Position numbers and translations under genes: made by a program. The notes under the pieces are model-generated. The model made no database searches. It saw nothing but the letters and a program-made list of their open reading frames with translations, and had not been told where the DNA came from. Shown piece after piece: positions 44,743-50,134 of a stretch of DNA of 64,000 nucleotides; position 1 is the first letter of the stretch; each line of letters opens with the position of its first letter. Source of the stretch: Flavobacteriales bacterium (GTDB lineage: Bacteria > Bacteroidota > Bacteroidia > Flavobacteriales_D > Crocinitomicaceae); the NCBI GenBank assembly GCA_947449575.1, contig CANFRV010000005.1:62001-126000 (forward strand), written 5' to 3'.

Positions 44743-47406
44743 TTATCGATGCCCCTTTATATCCTCTTCTATCTTTTCATCTAGTAAAGTTGAAAACTTA
44801 AGCGATAATTCTTCATACTGTTGTATTTTTTTACGCCCTTGATTAGCATAAACGACATCTTTGTTTTTTTCATTTTCATCCACTACTACTTTGAGTTCTT
44901 CGATTTTTTCTGAAAATGTTTTCATGTAATAAGCGATGAACTTCCCATAAAACATCTTTGTATAATGATCTCCATTTTCTTTTAGATAAACGAAAAGTTC
45001 AAAAGCTTTTTCATTTACATCAACATCTAATTTTGTGCTATACAAGGCAAAAGAATTCATTACGCTAATTTTATCGTACCCTTTCAAATTATTTCCTTTT
45101 AATGTTTTTTCAAAAAAAGCATAATCATCTGTCGTTCCATGAGCACTGTATATTTGTCCTATTACATCTAAAGTCAACGTAGAACTTTCATTCTCTAGTT
45201 TTTTCGCTTCAACCAAAGCTAATTTAGGATTTATTTGTCCTAAGTTTGAAAGTGCTGTTGAAAGTACGAGATAGGATTGTTCTTTTTTCATCCCTTCTAA
45301 CAACAGCTCTACAAATACTTCATCCTCTAGATTCTTCCCTAAAAATGAAAGTGCATCTGCTCTGACTTGCGAATTAGAATCTGCTATAGCAAGTGTTTTA
45401 ATTATTTCTATTGCAGCGATTTTATTCTGGTCTTTCAATTTGTTCGCCTGAGCAATTGCAACGGATCGGATTTCCCAAAAAGGGTCTTTCAAAGCGTCAA
45501 TATTCATTTGCTCTGATTGCGAGTTATTCAATTTTATTCCTTCTGACAAGCCTAATTTTCGTGCTTTATATGTTTTCCCGTTGTAGTATTGATACACATA
45601 TTGGTCAAGAGGCTTCTCTTCTCGAATCTTTGCAAGAAGCATCTGCTGATCGTCCACAATTACACACCTTAATGTTCCATCGTAGGGCAGAGTAAATTCA
45701 TTTATTAACGAATCTACAAGTACTTTATGTATATGTTTTCCTAATGAATCAAAAACGGCAATTTGCAGAGGTAATTTAAATATAGGAGAAAGGTCCAAAT
45801 TTTGACTTTGTTCAATCGATATTTTTACAGTTTTATCCGTTTTATTTTGTGACTGTTTTATATCGAGAATTGGGTGTGCAGAACCTAAATACCATTGATC
45901 AAAAAACCAATTTAAATCTTCTCCAGAGACCTCTTCGAAAGATAATCGTAGTTGGGAATATTCTGCTGATTTGAATTTATTAGTTGTTAGATAAAGAGTA
46001 AGCCCTTTAAAAAAAGCATCGTCACCTAAATAGGACCTCAACATGTGTAAAATTCTTCCGCCTTTATTATAAGAATGACCATCAAACATTTCTTCTTTGT
46101 CATCAAATTCAAACCATACTAGATCATGATATCCTTTATCTTGCGCTGATTCATAATATCCGTCTGCTTCAATTTCTGCTCTGTAAGCAGCTTCATCGGA
46201 GCCAAATCGGTGCTCATCCCATAAGTATTGAGAATAATTCGCAAAAGATTCATTCAACGTTAAATTTGACCATGATTCACAGGTAACTAAATCACCAAAC
46301 CAATGATGAAATAATTCGTGGGCAATTGTAGATTGATCATTTTCATCTAGTAATTCTCGTTTCGTTTTATACACGTAATCACCAAAAACCACAGCGCCAG
46401 TGTTTTCCATTGCTCCCGAAACATATTCTCTCACCACAATTTGTGAATATTTATCCCAGGCATATTCTACTCCTAAAAGCTGTGAAAAGTATTTAATCAT
46501 CTTTGGAGTTTCACCGAAAATATCTTTCGCCACAGATTCCCATTCTGGTTCTACGTAATAATTTACTTCTATTTTTGAACCATCTGGGCGCGTATAATAA
46601 TCTTTTACTTGTTTAAATTCACCAACTGCCATCATAAATAAATAAGGCGCATGTGGTAAATCTTGCTTCCAATGATCCGTTCGACTTCCATTGGAATTTA
46701 CTTTTGAACTTATTAATTTCCCATTCGAAAGAGTGGTGTATTTTTGGTCTACCGTGATGAAAATTTCCTCGGTGGTTTTAGCATTTGGTGAATCAATTGT
46801 GGGAAACCAAGCAGAGTTCGATTCTGTTTCTCCTTGCGTCCAAATTTGAGGCATTTTCGATTTATTTTCTCCTTTTGGATTGATGAAATATAACCCTTTA
46901 TCTTCTAGAATTGCTTCACTTCCCTTTGTTACTCTGTCGTTTGGTTTAGCAATATAATTTATTTGTATTGTATAATTTTCAGTTCTTTTATACTCTTTGT
47001 TTAATTTAATATGTAAAAAATCATTCACATATGAATAAGCTAATGCTTGATTATTCAACGAAACACTTAGAATCTCCATTCCTTTTGCATCTAAAACCAA
47101 GCTGTCTGAGGCATAGAAATGAGGTTTTGCGGTAATGGTCGCGATTCCATTCATTCTTGCGTTAGGCCAATCAAAATTTACTTCCAATTTGGTGTGAATC
47201 AAATCTGTTAATGTAGTTTCAGTTGCGCGATAAACAGGCCTTGAAACAGGATAAATCGATTCATCCAGATCATCTAACATGAAATCAGCAGAAGCATTTT
47301 CTTCTTGAAGAATCGTATTTTTATCCGTAGAACTTTTTTTATAAGATCTGCAACTCGTGAAAGCAAAAATGATTGAAATTAATAAGAAATAAAGCCCTCT
47401 ATTCAT
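44743..47406 (-). CDS. M1-family aminopeptidase lipoprotein with HEAT-like tail
   Basis: 887 residues. It starts MNRGLYFLLISIIFAFTSCR, a lipoprotein signal (lipobox FTSC). The N-terminal beta domain is followed by the thermolysin-like catalytic domain: exopeptidase motif SGAMENTGAVVF, zinc motif HELFHHWFGD and the third ligand in NESFANY. The C-terminal about 300 residues are helical and repetitive (DPFWEIRSVAIAQANKLKDQ, NSQVRADALSFLGKN), like HEAT repeats. It removes N-terminal residues from peptides in the envelope. A second, shorter M1 gene lies at the window's right end. Confidence 0.95.
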   Translation of the reverse strand: MNRGLYFLLISIIFAFTSCRSYKKSSTDKNTILQEENASADFMLDDLDESIYPVSRPVYRATETTLTDLIHTKLEVNFDWPNARMNGIATITAKPHFYASDSLVLDAKGMEILSVSLNNQALAYSYVNDFLHIKLNKEYKRTENYTIQINYIAKPNDRVTKGSEAILEDKGLYFINPKGENKSKMPQIWTQGETESNSAWFPTIDSPNAKTTEEIFITVDQKYTTLSNGKLISSKVNSNGSRTDHWKQDLPHAPYLFMMAVGEFKQVKDYYTRPDGSKIEVNYYVEPEWESVAKDIFGETPKMIKYFSQLLGVEYAWDKYSQIVVREYVSGAMENTGAVVFGDYVYKTKRELLDENDQSTIAHELFHHWFGDLVTCESWSNLTLNESFANYSQYLWDEHRFGSDEAAYRAEIEADGYYESAQDKGYHDLVWFEFDDKEEMFDGHSYNKGGRILHMLRSYLGDDAFFKGLTLYLTTNKFKSAEYSQLRLSFEEVSGEDLNWFFDQWYLGSAHPILDIKQSQNKTDKTVKISIEQSQNLDLSPIFKLPLQIAVFDSLGKHIHKVLVDSLINEFTLPYDGTLRCVIVDDQQMLLAKIREEKPLDQYVYQYYNGKTYKARKLGLSEGIKLNNSQSEQMNIDALKDPFWEIRSVAIAQANKLKDQNKIAAIEIIKTLAIADSNSQVRADALSFLGKNLEDEVFVELLLEGMKKEQSYLVLSTALSNLGQINPKLALVEAKKLENESSTLTLDVIGQIYSAHGTTDDYAFFEKTLKGNNLKGYDKISVMNSFALYSTKLDVDVNEKAFELFVYLKENGDHYTKMFYGKFIAYYMKTFSEKIEELKVVVDENEKNKDVVYANQGRKKIQQYEELSLKFSTLLDEKIEEDIKGHR

Positions 47407-47596
47407 TTGTGTATTTTTTATTTTTGTCGTTTTTTAATACAAATCAAGGAGAATCATCTTGTAATTATTTATTCCTCAATCATTCGAAATCAAATATAGG
47501 TTTATTTAGTATATTTTGATTTGAAATATGTTTTTTTATGAAATGATTCAAGAATAAAATCAACTATAGAAATGACCTATTTAATGACTAAAATCT

Positions 47597-47956
47597 TTAC
47601 ATATACGCAGTAAATGCATCTTCTATATGTTCTATTTTCGTACGAAATGAATTATGAACAATCGAAATAACATCAAATCTAGTATCTACATCTAAATTCT
47701 TAATTTTTAGATAGTGATCCGCCACTTGAATGATGATTTTCTGTTTTGCGCGAGTAACGGCTTGCCAAGGTTCTCCAATTTCTGCTGTTTGTCTCGCCTT
47801 TACCTCGATCACAACCAATTGATTATTAAATGAGGCGACAATATCAATCTCATTTCGATTGAATTTATAATTCCTAGTTAGGATGTTGTATCCTTTGCTT
47901 ACAAGGTGAGAAACAGCTAAATTTTCTCCCAAAATGCCTAATTCTTGATTGGTCAT
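47597..47956 (-). CDS. yraN: YraN (UPF0102) family nuclease-like protein
   Basis: 119 residues with a restriction-endonuclease-like core. The family pattern is visible as GILGENLAVSHLVSKGYNIL followed by TRNYKFNRNEIDIVA, with Asp in EIDIV and the catalytic-like VVIEVKAR. The family is conserved in nearly all bacteria; its biochemical role is not settled. It starts 45 bases after the RAYT gene, same strand. Confidence 0.93.
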   Translation of the reverse strand: MTNQELGILGENLAVSHLVSKGYNILTRNYKFNRNEIDIVASFNNQLVVIEVKARQTAEIGEPWQAVTRAKQKIIIQVADHYLKIKNLDVDTRFDVISIVHNSFRTKIEHIEDAFTAYM

Positions 47957-48001
47957 ATTTCTGATTTTCTAATTTATGTTGGTTAGAATTACGATTTAAA
48001 T

Positions 48002-48700
48002 TTATTCTCCAAAAAATCTGTCTTCATCCCATTTCTTAACATTGTTCTTAATATAATTTGAAATTTGATGATATGAATGTTCATTTTGAATTAAATGATC
48101 GTAATACAATCGTTGCCATTCAAATGTATATCCCAATCGACGCGCGTGTTTTGTTACAGCAGATTTATAAGACCCGATAATCGAGGAAACGGAATTTTTA
48201 CCAATGTTTTGATAACGATTTTGTCCGATGGATTTTTGTTGCGATTGTTGCGATTGTTGCGATTGTTGCGATTGTTGCGATTGTTGCGATTGTTGCGATT
48301 GTTGCGATTGTAGGGACAGGGCATGCCCTGTCCCTACAATCGCCGCCGTCATACCCGCCATACCCCCACCATTATCCCCATCGTTAATTTCCCCGGGATC
48401 CGAAATCATTTCATCATCAATATACCCGCCATTTAATGTCAATATCGCGTGTATATGATTGGGCATTACAACAAATGCATCCAATTTGATATTTTTTGCG
48501 TGATTTTTTATTTCATCCCAAAATATATCGGCGAGGACACCAATGTTGGATAAATTCATTTTACCATTTATAATTTCACCAAAAAAATGTTTCCGGTTTT
48601 TTGTGCAGATGGTTATAAAATAGGAACCAGCCCATCGATAATCCCAATTTTGTAATCGTATTGTTTCGTTTCGAAATTTGTTTTGAAAATAGGTTGCCAT
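48002..48700 (-). CDS. REP-associated tyrosine transposase (RAYT, HUH)
   Basis: 232-residue single-strand HUH transposase of the Y1/IS200-like superfamily. It begins NWDYRWAGSYFITICTKNRK, with the HUH motif in VVMPNHIHAIL (His 82 and 84) and a candidate nucleophile Tyr 178 in SIIGSYKSAVT; WQRLYYDHLIQNE and ISNYIKNNVKKW close the fold. Unusually, residues about 89-158 are an insertion between the two active-site halves, made of Gly/Asp-rich sequence, a peptide encoded by a 40-bp perfect palindrome, and eight Ser-Gln-Gln repeats. The frame stays open throughout. Such genes are usually domesticated and act on REP palindromes scattered in the genome. Confidence 0.88.
   Translation of the reverse strand: MATYFQNKFRNETIRLQNWDYRWAGSYFITICTKNRKHFFGEIINGKMNLSNIGVLADIFWDEIKNHAKNIKLDAFVVMPNHIHAILTLNGGYIDDEMISDPGEINDGDNGGGMAGMTAAIVGTGHALSLQSQQSQQSQQSQQSQQSQQSQQSQQKSIGQNRYQNIGKNSVSSIIGSYKSAVTKHARRLGYTFEWQRLYYDHLIQNEHSYHQISNYIKNNVKKWDEDRFFGE
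48239..48310 (-). repeat. Eight tandem 9-bp repeats inside the RAYT gene
   Basis: Unit TTGCGATTG (plus strand) is repeated eight times without change. It is in frame and encodes a (Ser-Gln-Gln) run at residues about 131-154. The last unit overlaps the left end of the palindrome. Perfect identity points to recent slippage and a copy number that may vary between strains. Confidence 0.97.
48304..48343. repeat. 40-bp perfect palindrome inside the RAYT gene
   Basis: All 40 bases are self-complementary around the centre at 48323/48324. The core reads TAGGGACAGGGC and its mirror. It encodes residues about 120-133 of the RAYT protein. It has the look of a REP/BIME-type hairpin, the substrate class of this enzyme family. 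I found no second copy in the window. Confidence 0.95.
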
Positions 48701-48802
48701 TGAGTTAAATTATTTCATTCTCTATCTAATTTAGTTAAATAGTTGAAATAAATCAATAACAAAATGATTTATTTGAATTTTTTTAAAAACCCAAAATGAG
48801 AA

Positions 48803-49381
48803 TTATTTACCCATTAATCTCGCCACATATTTTCCAATAATATCAAATTCTAAATTGATTTTATCGCCAATTTTTAGTTGATGAAAATTCGTGTGTTCGT
48901 ATGTGTAAGGAATGATGCAAACTGAAAATTGTCTGTCTTTAGAATCAACAACTGTTAAACTTACACCATTGACAGTGATAGAACCTTTTTCAACGGTTAC
49001 TTGTTCGGTTAAATAGTTGAAGGTAAATTTCCAACTTCCGTTTTGATCTTCGATGTTTGTGCAAGTTGCTGTTGTATCAACATGCCCTTGCACTATATGT
49101 CCGTCGAGGCGACCATTCATTTGCATACATCTCTCTAAATTTACTTTGGTACCTACTTTCCATTCACCTAGATTCGTTTTTTCTAACGTTTCGTGAATAG
49201 CAGTAACGGTATATTCATCGTCGTTGATTGAAACAACCGTTAAACATGCCCCATTGTGCGCAACACTTTGATCGATTTTTAACTCATTTGCAATCGATGA
49301 TTGAACTGTAAAATGAATGTTTTCGCCTTCTTTTTTAATCGCTGTAATATGTCCTATTTGTTCAATAATCCCTGTAAACAT
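48803..49381 (-). CDS. ribE: Riboflavin synthase (alpha chain)
   Basis: 192-residue enzyme that dismutates 6,7-dimethyl-8-ribityllumazine to riboflavin. The two homologous lumazine-binding barrels are visible: MFTGIIEQIGHITAI with NGACLTVV, then GHIVQGHVDTTATC with KGSITVNGVSLTVVD. The end FDIIGKYVARL is standard. It begins 12 bases after the NYN-LOTUS gene and is likely in its transcript. No FMN riboswitch is visible in the short gap. Confidence 0.97.
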   Translation of the reverse strand: MFTGIIEQIGHITAIKKEGENIHFTVQSSIANELKIDQSVAHNGACLTVVSINDDEYTVTAIHETLEKTNLGEWKVGTKVNLERCMQMNGRLDGHIVQGHVDTTATCTNIEDQNGSWKFTFNYLTEQVTVEKGSITVNGVSLTVVDSKDRQFSVCIIPYTYEHTNFHQLKIGDKINLEFDIIGKYVARLMGK

Positions 49382-49393
49382 AAACTCTACTTG

Positions 49394-50134
49394 TTATTTA
49401 TTTCGAACGTAAATTAATTTCGTTTTCCCTTTAGAATTCTCTCTTTGTTCAATTTCAAATTGGTTGGTTGAATTTATAAGGGGCGTCAATTTTTCAAAAC
49501 CATAATTTCTTGAATCGAAATTAGGTTGTTTTTTCATTAATAAACTTCCTACATCACCCAAAAAAGCCCATCCTTCATAATCTGCTAAATCTGAAATAGT
49601 AGAAGAAATTAATTGAATAACTTTAGGCGTAATTTTATCTACTTCATTTTTCTTTTGAGCAATCCCTTTTTCAACTGGATTATTTGACTGGGATCCTTGG
49701 TTTTTAAGAATTTCAATGTAGATAAACCGATCACATGCAACAATAAAAGGTTCAGGCGTTTTCTTTTCTCCAATGCCAATCACATACATGCTCGCTTCAC
49801 GCAATCTTGTTGCCAAACGTGTAAAATCACTATCGCTCGAAACCAAACAAAAACCACTGACCTTTTCTGAATACAATAAATCCATAGCGTCGATAATCAT
49901 TGCTGAATCAGTAGCATTTTTTCCTGTGGTATAGGCATATTGTTGAATTGGAGTAATTGCATTCTGTAATAATAAATTTTTCCATTTCGAAAGATTTGGT
50001 TGTGTCCAATCTCCATATATACGTTTCACCGTTGGGTTTCCATATTTTGCAATTTCTTCCATCATCTCTTTTACATTCGCTGAAGGAATATTGTCACCAT
50101 CTATCAAGACGGCTAATTTTAAGTCTTTTTCCAT
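49394..50134 (-). CDS. NYN-domain nuclease-like protein with LOTUS (OST-HTH) domain
   Basis: 246 residues. The N-terminal PIN-like NYN domain (LabA/limkain type) shows the acidic residues of its metal site in LAVLIDGDNIPSANV, GKNATDSAMIIDAMDLL and CLVSSDSDFTRLATRLREAS. The C-terminal about 70 residues (VIQLISSTISDLADYEGWAF, RNYGFEKLTPLIN) form an OST-HTH/LOTUS domain, which in other proteins binds RNA, including G-quadruplexes. An RNA-processing or RNA-surveillance role is likely (inference). It is 12 bases upstream of ribE and divergent from the efflux operon. A -7-like TATCTTTG is at 50199-50192. Confidence 0.9.
   Translation of the reverse strand: MEKDLKLAVLIDGDNIPSANVKEMMEEIAKYGNPTVKRIYGDWTQPNLSKWKNLLLQNAITPIQQYAYTTGKNATDSAMIIDAMDLLYSEKVSGFCLVSSDSDFTRLATRLREASMYVIGIGEKKTPEPFIVACDRFIYIEILKNQGSQSNNPVEKGIAQKKNEVDKITPKVIQLISSTISDLADYEGWAFLGDVGSLLMKKQPNFDSRNYGFEKLTPLINSTNQFEIEQRENSKGKTKLIYVRNK

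Follow-up and report, generated by a model that had tools for sequence, protein, structure and literature searches.

The REPs of E. coli carry one foot and lie outside genes. The TnpAREP enzymes of E. coli, Stenotrophomonas and Marinomonas bind the REP as a single-stranded hairpin, according to passages of PMC8266576. GTAG-tagged REPs have been described inside ORFs, where they possibly encode linkers or loops, and longer palindromes enclose the REPs of A. variabilis, T. roseum and H. neapolitanus (Di Nocera et al. 2013, passages of PMC3733652). The closest described system is TnpAREP subclass 2.4, which, as presented in the main text of Quentin et al. (2018, PMC6006769), is unique in having REPs placed in frame inside tnpAREP itself, as a rule between HuH and Y, and combines double-foot REPs with short repeats in a variable domain; Table 1 of that paper gives it as Bertels group 4.

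A RAYT gene of this kind lies in a 64,000-nucleotide stretch of a Flavobacteriales genome (the window). Its in-gene REP between HuH and Tyr is an arrangement already published, in the main text of PMC6006769, and the likeness to subclass 2.4 as described there extends to the Bacteroidetes and Cyanobacteria range, the NH[IFV]H and WQ motifs, the double-foot GT[AG]G...C[TC]AC REP and the short repeats in the variable insertion. The passages of that paper on subclass 2.4 do not describe copy-specific flank arms, two-arm covariation or sister-species differences at the palindrome centre, all of which are seen here. The outer palindromes of Di Nocera et al. fit a consensus for each family in the relevant passages of PMC3733652, whereas the arms found here vary from copy to copy, and the passage of that paper on phyla does not list Bacteroidetes for GTAG repeats. 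The E. coli enzyme (REPtron; 4er8; passages of PMC8266576) shares the HUH/Tyr fold and the GTAG foot, but its REPs have a required bulge, in contrast to the perfect palindrome here, and its chain has 165 residues (4er8) compared with 232 aa. Quasipalindrome template switching is alike in that inverted-repeat arms are created or equalised by copying across a hairpin; it is described on other sequences (PMC7202029, PMC8794818), and we infer its application to REPs. Among the papers listed in searches that paired REPs with template switching or inverted duplication, or that looked for later work on RAYTs and in-gene REPs, none deals with the flank pattern. The outer copy-specific palindromes (48 of the 72 REP copies listed) and the centre differences at two sites are possibly new, and they hint at how REP palindromes grow, shrink and stay perfect.

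The window gene encodes a RAYT

The CDS at 48002..48700 on the minus strand encodes a protein of 232 aa for which a RAYT identity had been proposed, and three comparisons supported it. The NCBIfam model NF047646 (REP_Tyr_transpos) matched the protein in two stretches (E 1.8e-11), at 44.1 bits and thus under its 80-bit curated cut-off; the same model gave a match in 6 of 14 control genomes, above the cut-off in one. A profile of four relatives retrieved a single solved structure, the REP-bound E. coli TnpAREP 4er8 (E 9.5e-5). A structure was also modelled from 42 sequences, the window protein plus 41 of the best 80 homologues among the matches listed (mean pLDDT 76.5, superseding a 4-sequence model with a mean of 52), and Foldseek placed 4er8 at rank 1 in the PDB (E 1.8e-5), followed by the ISDra2 and IS608 transposases. 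Pfam gave no match to the protein at E 0.001. His82 and His84 of the HUH motif (His82-Ile-His84 in PNHIH; 48449..48457, minus strand) and the candidate catalytic Tyr216 (YIKNN; 48053..48055, minus strand) are invariant in the 42-sequence alignment, which, together with the fold match, points to an HUH enzyme with a single Tyr and an IS200/IS605-like fold. Of the subclass 2.4 motifs NH[IFV]H, WQ and YIxNNP, NHIH and WQ are present, and the window protein reads YIKNNV where the 42-row consensus is YIxNNP. Judged by the family model (below its cut-off), by sequence relationship to 4er8 and by predicted fold, the gene is a RAYT.

NF047646 matched five places in the window's own genome (G000), on contigs C1, C5, C10, C17 and C56; the C5 match is the window gene, and those on C17 and C56 are broken by stops. 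An autonomous IS200/IS605 element would have its transposase gene flanked by its own subterminal hairpins and would move as a unit; the window gene has one full-length copy in the genome, and no second strong palindrome was found near the ORF among inverted repeats with arms of at least 12-13 nt. A tRNA search of the whole window returned nothing.

A perfect REP palindrome and a 9-bp array lie in a linker predicted to be disordered

The inverted-repeat search confirmed the predicted 40-bp perfect palindrome at 48304..48343, which has 20-nt arms that are 100% complementary and no loop. It consists of a 28-bp double-foot REP core, GTAGGGACAGGGCATGCCCTGTCCCTAC (48310..48337), that starts with GTAG, ends with CTAC and has further genomic copies, and of 6-bp arms, GCGATT and AATCGC, on its two sides. 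The listing for the window has 21 inverted-repeat pairs (arms of at least 13 nt, copies no more than 60 nt apart), and no other pair in it is perfect with arms longer than 13 nt. Folding the region as single-strand DNA gave a z of -4.64. With up to 3 mismatches allowed, the window has a single occurrence of the central 22-mer and 100 shuffles have none, and a palindrome score of at least 14 was reached by 0 of 480 codon-shuffled homologous ORFs. One arm is overlapped by a 9-bp tandem array with 100% matches, encoding Ser-Gln-Gln eight times. Eight identical copies in frame had been predicted and were found; the array itself extends over 48236..48311 (8.4 copies), and the previously given 48239-48310 is its eight-copy part.

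Palindrome and array are both in frame and lie between His82/His84 and Tyr216, as the ORF and the 42-sequence alignment show. They occupy a variable linker (residues 91-168; 48197..48430, minus strand) that is predicted to be disordered: block-mean pLDDT is 41-64 at residues 91-170 and 91-98 at residues 21-90 and 171-220. An insert of about 70 residues had been suggested; the value is nearer 54 when the 232 aa are compared with the 178 aa, counted from the first Met, of G004 (L026), the closest complete homologue seen without the insert. G004 has no in-gene palindrome but has one about 60 bp past the gene end.

Five pairs give a dN/dS of 0.09-0.21 for the gene without its linker, and the catalytic parts are under purifying selection. 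In the distant pairs G000-G006, G002-G006 and G000-G012, the linker reaches 0.83-1.04 compared with 0.09-0.13 for the rest of the gene; G012-L175 has a linker value of 0.22, and for G000-G002, whose linkers show no synonymous change, the value is undefined.

Further copies of the REP in the genome

A search of the 3.5-Mb genome with the central 22-mer at up to 3 mismatches returned 8 copies, the in-gene one and 7 more, and a reversed control pattern returned 0. The original prediction named the lack of any other copy, together with a lack of binding, as evidence against it; other copies are present. Over the full 28 bp, up to 3 mismatches allowed 3 further genomic copies. Seven of the eight 22-mer copies are perfect palindromes and the copy on C40 has one mismatched pair; the variants include GGTATAGGGCATGCCCTATACC (three copies) and GGGATATGGCATGCCATATCCC (one copy), each altered on both arms. 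One copy lies within a long ORF whose sequence reads as ileS. L002 and L004 are intergenic, the latter presumably between icd and aroE, and for the four other copies no ORF of at least 120 aa spans the copy. GTAG REPs associated with the RAYT are therefore present in this genome, in 8 copies.

Palindromes of different types accompany two other RAYTs of this genome, inside the gene on C1 (1 copy in the genome with up to 3 mismatches allowed) and beside the gene on C17 (2 copies at the same threshold). None of the C5, C1 and C17 types has the high copy number that would suggest activity (8, 1 and 2 copies), and since the window type has only 8 genomic copies, current REP mobility may be low or nil. 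Draft contigs of L172, L173, L073, L084 and L286-L289 often end at REPs or inside RAYT linkers, and copy numbers may therefore be undercounted.

In related loci, most in-gene palindromes match the REP beside the gene

If the gene carries a hairpin of its own substrate type, as originally predicted, palindromes beside related genes should resemble those within them. Among the best 80 homologues of the matches listed, which come from named records, 76 loci have full 250-bp flanks, and 17 of these have strong palindromes both in the gene and adjacent to it. The two types agree (differing at no more than 1 of 9 positions) at 12 of the 14 comparable GTAG loci, the exceptions being L233 and L235. 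The summed in-gene/adjacent distance is 11 compared with a permuted mean of 39.9, and 0 of 20,000 permutations were as low. The 14 loci omit L192 and L194, which are AT-rich and have no GTAG, and L238, whose adjacent copy is composite; one adjacent copy was used where there were two, and the palindrome inside the L241 gene counts as N-terminal. Adjacent palindromes were found at 20 of the 76 loci of the best 80 listed, compared with 4 of 76 for control windows 1.5 kb away. G012 contains two REP families (6 and 4 copies among the matches listed), each with an in-gene copy in a different RAYT, and holds more RAYTs with other palindromes or none. Together with the genomic copies, the type agreement supports, at the level of sequence, the view that the hairpin is of the enzyme's own substrate type. 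A trade-off between in-gene and adjacent REPs was considered and rejected: an adjacent REP accompanies 17 of the 59 in-gene palindromes and is present at 3 of the 17 loci that lack one (Fisher p 0.53, best 80 listed).

In-gene palindromes among homologues

A best palindrome score of at least 10 was reached by 62 of the best 80 homologous ORFs listed, compared with 1.5% of 480 codon shuffles; 58 of these palindromes are in the linker, 1 is N-terminal and 3 are unassigned. Since these 80 are the best among the matches listed of a scan with a four-row alignment in which all rows carry palindromes, 62 of 80 is not a prevalence. The set is mainly Bacteroidota with a few records titled Cyanobacteria and other groups, and it includes a few relatives that also have a genome code (the L174 protein is that of G002). 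Of 40 RAYT regions in relatives, 34 contain a recognised HUH ORF, and inside 10 of those ORFs a palindrome scores at least 10, not always in the linker; L254 is additional.

In 56 in-gene cores of the best 80 listed, leaving aside 6 of the 62 palindromes that lack a recognisable foot, the first base of GTAG falls in codon phase 0 in 44, in phase 1 in 12 and never in phase 2, which is absent because the stop TAG would then be in frame. Pairing was examined in 32 of 37 distinct cores taken from 51 even-length palindromes, after L185, L233 and L244 (off-centre) and L237 and L238 (foot lost) were dropped by eye. In these cores, 96.2% of 448 cells pair, with 17 unpaired and 1 G-U; cores were chosen as palindromic, so the percentage itself is not evidence, but the variety of matched pairs without G-U is. 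Changes on both sides were found in 95 cells, where shuffles give 23.8 and slid structures 3-16, and a one-sided change in 1 cell. Further pair types were not above shuffles (22 compared with 22.4). Mapped on a tree of the catalytic part (78 of the best 80 listed homologues plus the window), in which 9 of 76 inner branches are starred and few forks are thus well supported, core types require 33 changes compared with 43.5 when shuffled (none of 300 shuffles as low). Whether or not a gene carries a palindrome gave no signal on this tree (16 changes compared with 16.3; 148 of 300).

Flanking arms and differences between sister species

The first four copies found in G000 are each extended by their own inverted flank. 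Across G000 and relatives, 76 distinct copies were listed, and for the 72 whose left and right flanks each reach 15 nt the flank arms score at least 4 in 48, at least 8 in 33 and at least 10 in 25, in a set in which some genomes are under-sampled (most of G020, for example), a few copies are the same site across species (the ileS site) and one, L083 with arms of 40, opens a contig and is possibly a foldback of the assembly. Mispaired flanks reach these scores in 4.9%, 0.87% and 0.37%, a control that corrects only partly for arms that are T/A tracts and easily matched. Five of the six G000 copies with both flanks have arms of at least 6, and one has none. The effect is weaker for in-gene copies, with arms of at least 5 in 10 of 56 compared with 0.5% (best 80 listed homologues). 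Reading the arms as intrinsic terminators was rejected by inspection: many show T-tract, core and A-tract, which is the reverse order.

At two of three sites compared, the differences between sister species sit at the centre of the palindrome. At the aroE site, the core is missing from G002, which retains the outer palindrome, and both are missing from G007, G001 and G006. At a site occupied in G002, G000 is without core and inner arms and keeps TTTTC/GAAAA at the junction; a REP is present there in G006 and G004 and absent in G007, and core loss in G000 would be the simpler reading. The third site, in frame in the ileS-like gene (L003/L154-L164; G000:C28:22728-22755), has differing palindromes in G000/G002, G001, G007 and G004, an apparent remnant in G011 and none in G006, with two other species unalignable. 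In the RAYT gene itself, the arms vary by species yet match each other, being GCGATT/AATCGC in G000 and G002 and ATGATTCT/AGAATCAT in G012. In the RAYT of G006 the core is flanked left and right by the 9-bp unit, with one mismatch, in a Pro-Gln-Gln version of the array, and the number of 9-bp repeats is 8 in the window gene and 4 in the sister species G002.

Explanations for a palindrome that stays perfect inside a gene

The explanation that we consider probable is that the window gene is an intact RAYT (TnpAREP, subclass 2.4-like) that carries its own REP substrate in frame within a disordered HUH-Tyr linker, and that fold-back copying keeps this palindrome perfect. The enzyme would bind and nick the in-gene hairpin when the gene is single-stranded, by analogy to the TnpAREPs studied in the passages of PMC8266576, and by the same analogy it most likely binds its own REP as a single-stranded hairpin. 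A nascent strand could then fold back on the hairpin and copy its own other arm, so that the palindrome would stay perfect and lengthen; the same copying may write the inverted flank copies and mirror the 9-bp repeat, hairpin slippage may give rise to the tandem repeats, and trimming at the apex may remove the core. The in-gene position would be tolerated because the linker is free, and a cognate REP would thereby stay in cis with its enzyme. We infer that hairpin-templated copying and apex loss lie behind the copy-specific outer palindromes and the centre differences. En bloc replacement by new REP insertions accounts for the two-sided changes just as well, and these data do not tell the two apart. 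That the palindrome was inserted by REP mobility, as had been suggested, is plausible; evolution in place is equally possible because core types follow the RAYT tree. A wider proposal, which we regard as speculative and rather unlikely, is that the double-foot REPs of this group are written and rewritten by fold-back synthesis, which would invert and copy the flank, hold the two arms identical, mirror neighbouring tandem repeats and allow cores to disappear from the apex, and that the in-gene copy serves as a heritable master matching enzyme to substrate over time; if true, these REPs would be more than cut-and-paste hairpins. With the substrate inside the enzyme's own coding sequence, the match between RAYT and REP is directly testable, and copy-specific flanking palindromes with centre-only differences between sisters are a checkable signature of replication-based REP diversity.

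A serious competitor, to which we give somewhat less than an even chance, is that the palindrome has no role: REPs jump near the transposase gene, some land in a tolerant loop, and their perfection reflects youth or repeated replacement. A linker dN/dS close to 1 in each of the three distant pairs, the predicted disorder, the in-frame REPs with type turnover at the single ileS-like site and the unclustered presence and absence on the tree all agree with such a neutral passenger, as does the published view in the main text of PMC6006769 that such inserts are peripheral. Palindromes in the same linker of 58 of the best 80 listed homologues, a carrier-biased set, and core types that track the gene tree suggest instead a long residence. 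It is improbable that the palindrome acts in the mRNA, where it might slow ribosomes or set the transposase level. A 20-bp perfect stem is expected to be strong in RNA as well (the computed fold is of DNA), but a single G-U cell among 448, against 17 unpaired, is hard to reconcile with selection on RNA pairing, although choosing cores by Watson-Crick pairs leans somewhat against G-U, and an Rfam search of 47000-49600 at the gathering threshold gave no match. Changes on two arms with almost no G-U fit a hairpin read at the DNA level better than one in RNA, as far as the aligned cores can tell.

Selection on the encoded peptide (VGTGHALSLQ and the SQQ repeats) seems very improbable to us. The predominance of phase 0 over phase 1 does yield V(E/G)TxHAxSL-like peptides in many of the best 80 listed homologues, but the absence of the third phase is explained by the in-frame TAG, the peptides differ by phase (GRDAMHCVST and others), and the linker is nearly free to change in distant pairs. 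The chance that the structure is an assembly or sequencing artefact is practically negligible: contigs of some relatives end within this gene or at REPs, as expected for palindromes that are hard to assemble, but the same structure is present in assemblies G002, G006 and G012, and other core types occur in named isolates. Having weighed these readings, we retain the intact RAYT with its own in-frame substrate as the probable one.

Tandem arrays and other RAYT linkers

A second RAYT of the window's genome, L254 (G000:C1:178400-179700), has an in-frame palindrome with 33-bp arms beside a repeated DDVVM tract, and its core is without another genomic copy at up to 3 mismatches. L174, L190, L206 and L231 come from metagenome bins labelled Chryseobacterium gleum, and their RAYTs are 37% to 88% identical to that of the window; the label looks unreliable. 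A tandem array is present in the linker of 34 of the best 80 homologous ORFs listed. The linkers of L034, L040 and L047 hold an in-gene palindrome together with tandem repeats (ISPSDT, SGDSLLGDS and others), and in some homologues the array unit includes half of a REP.
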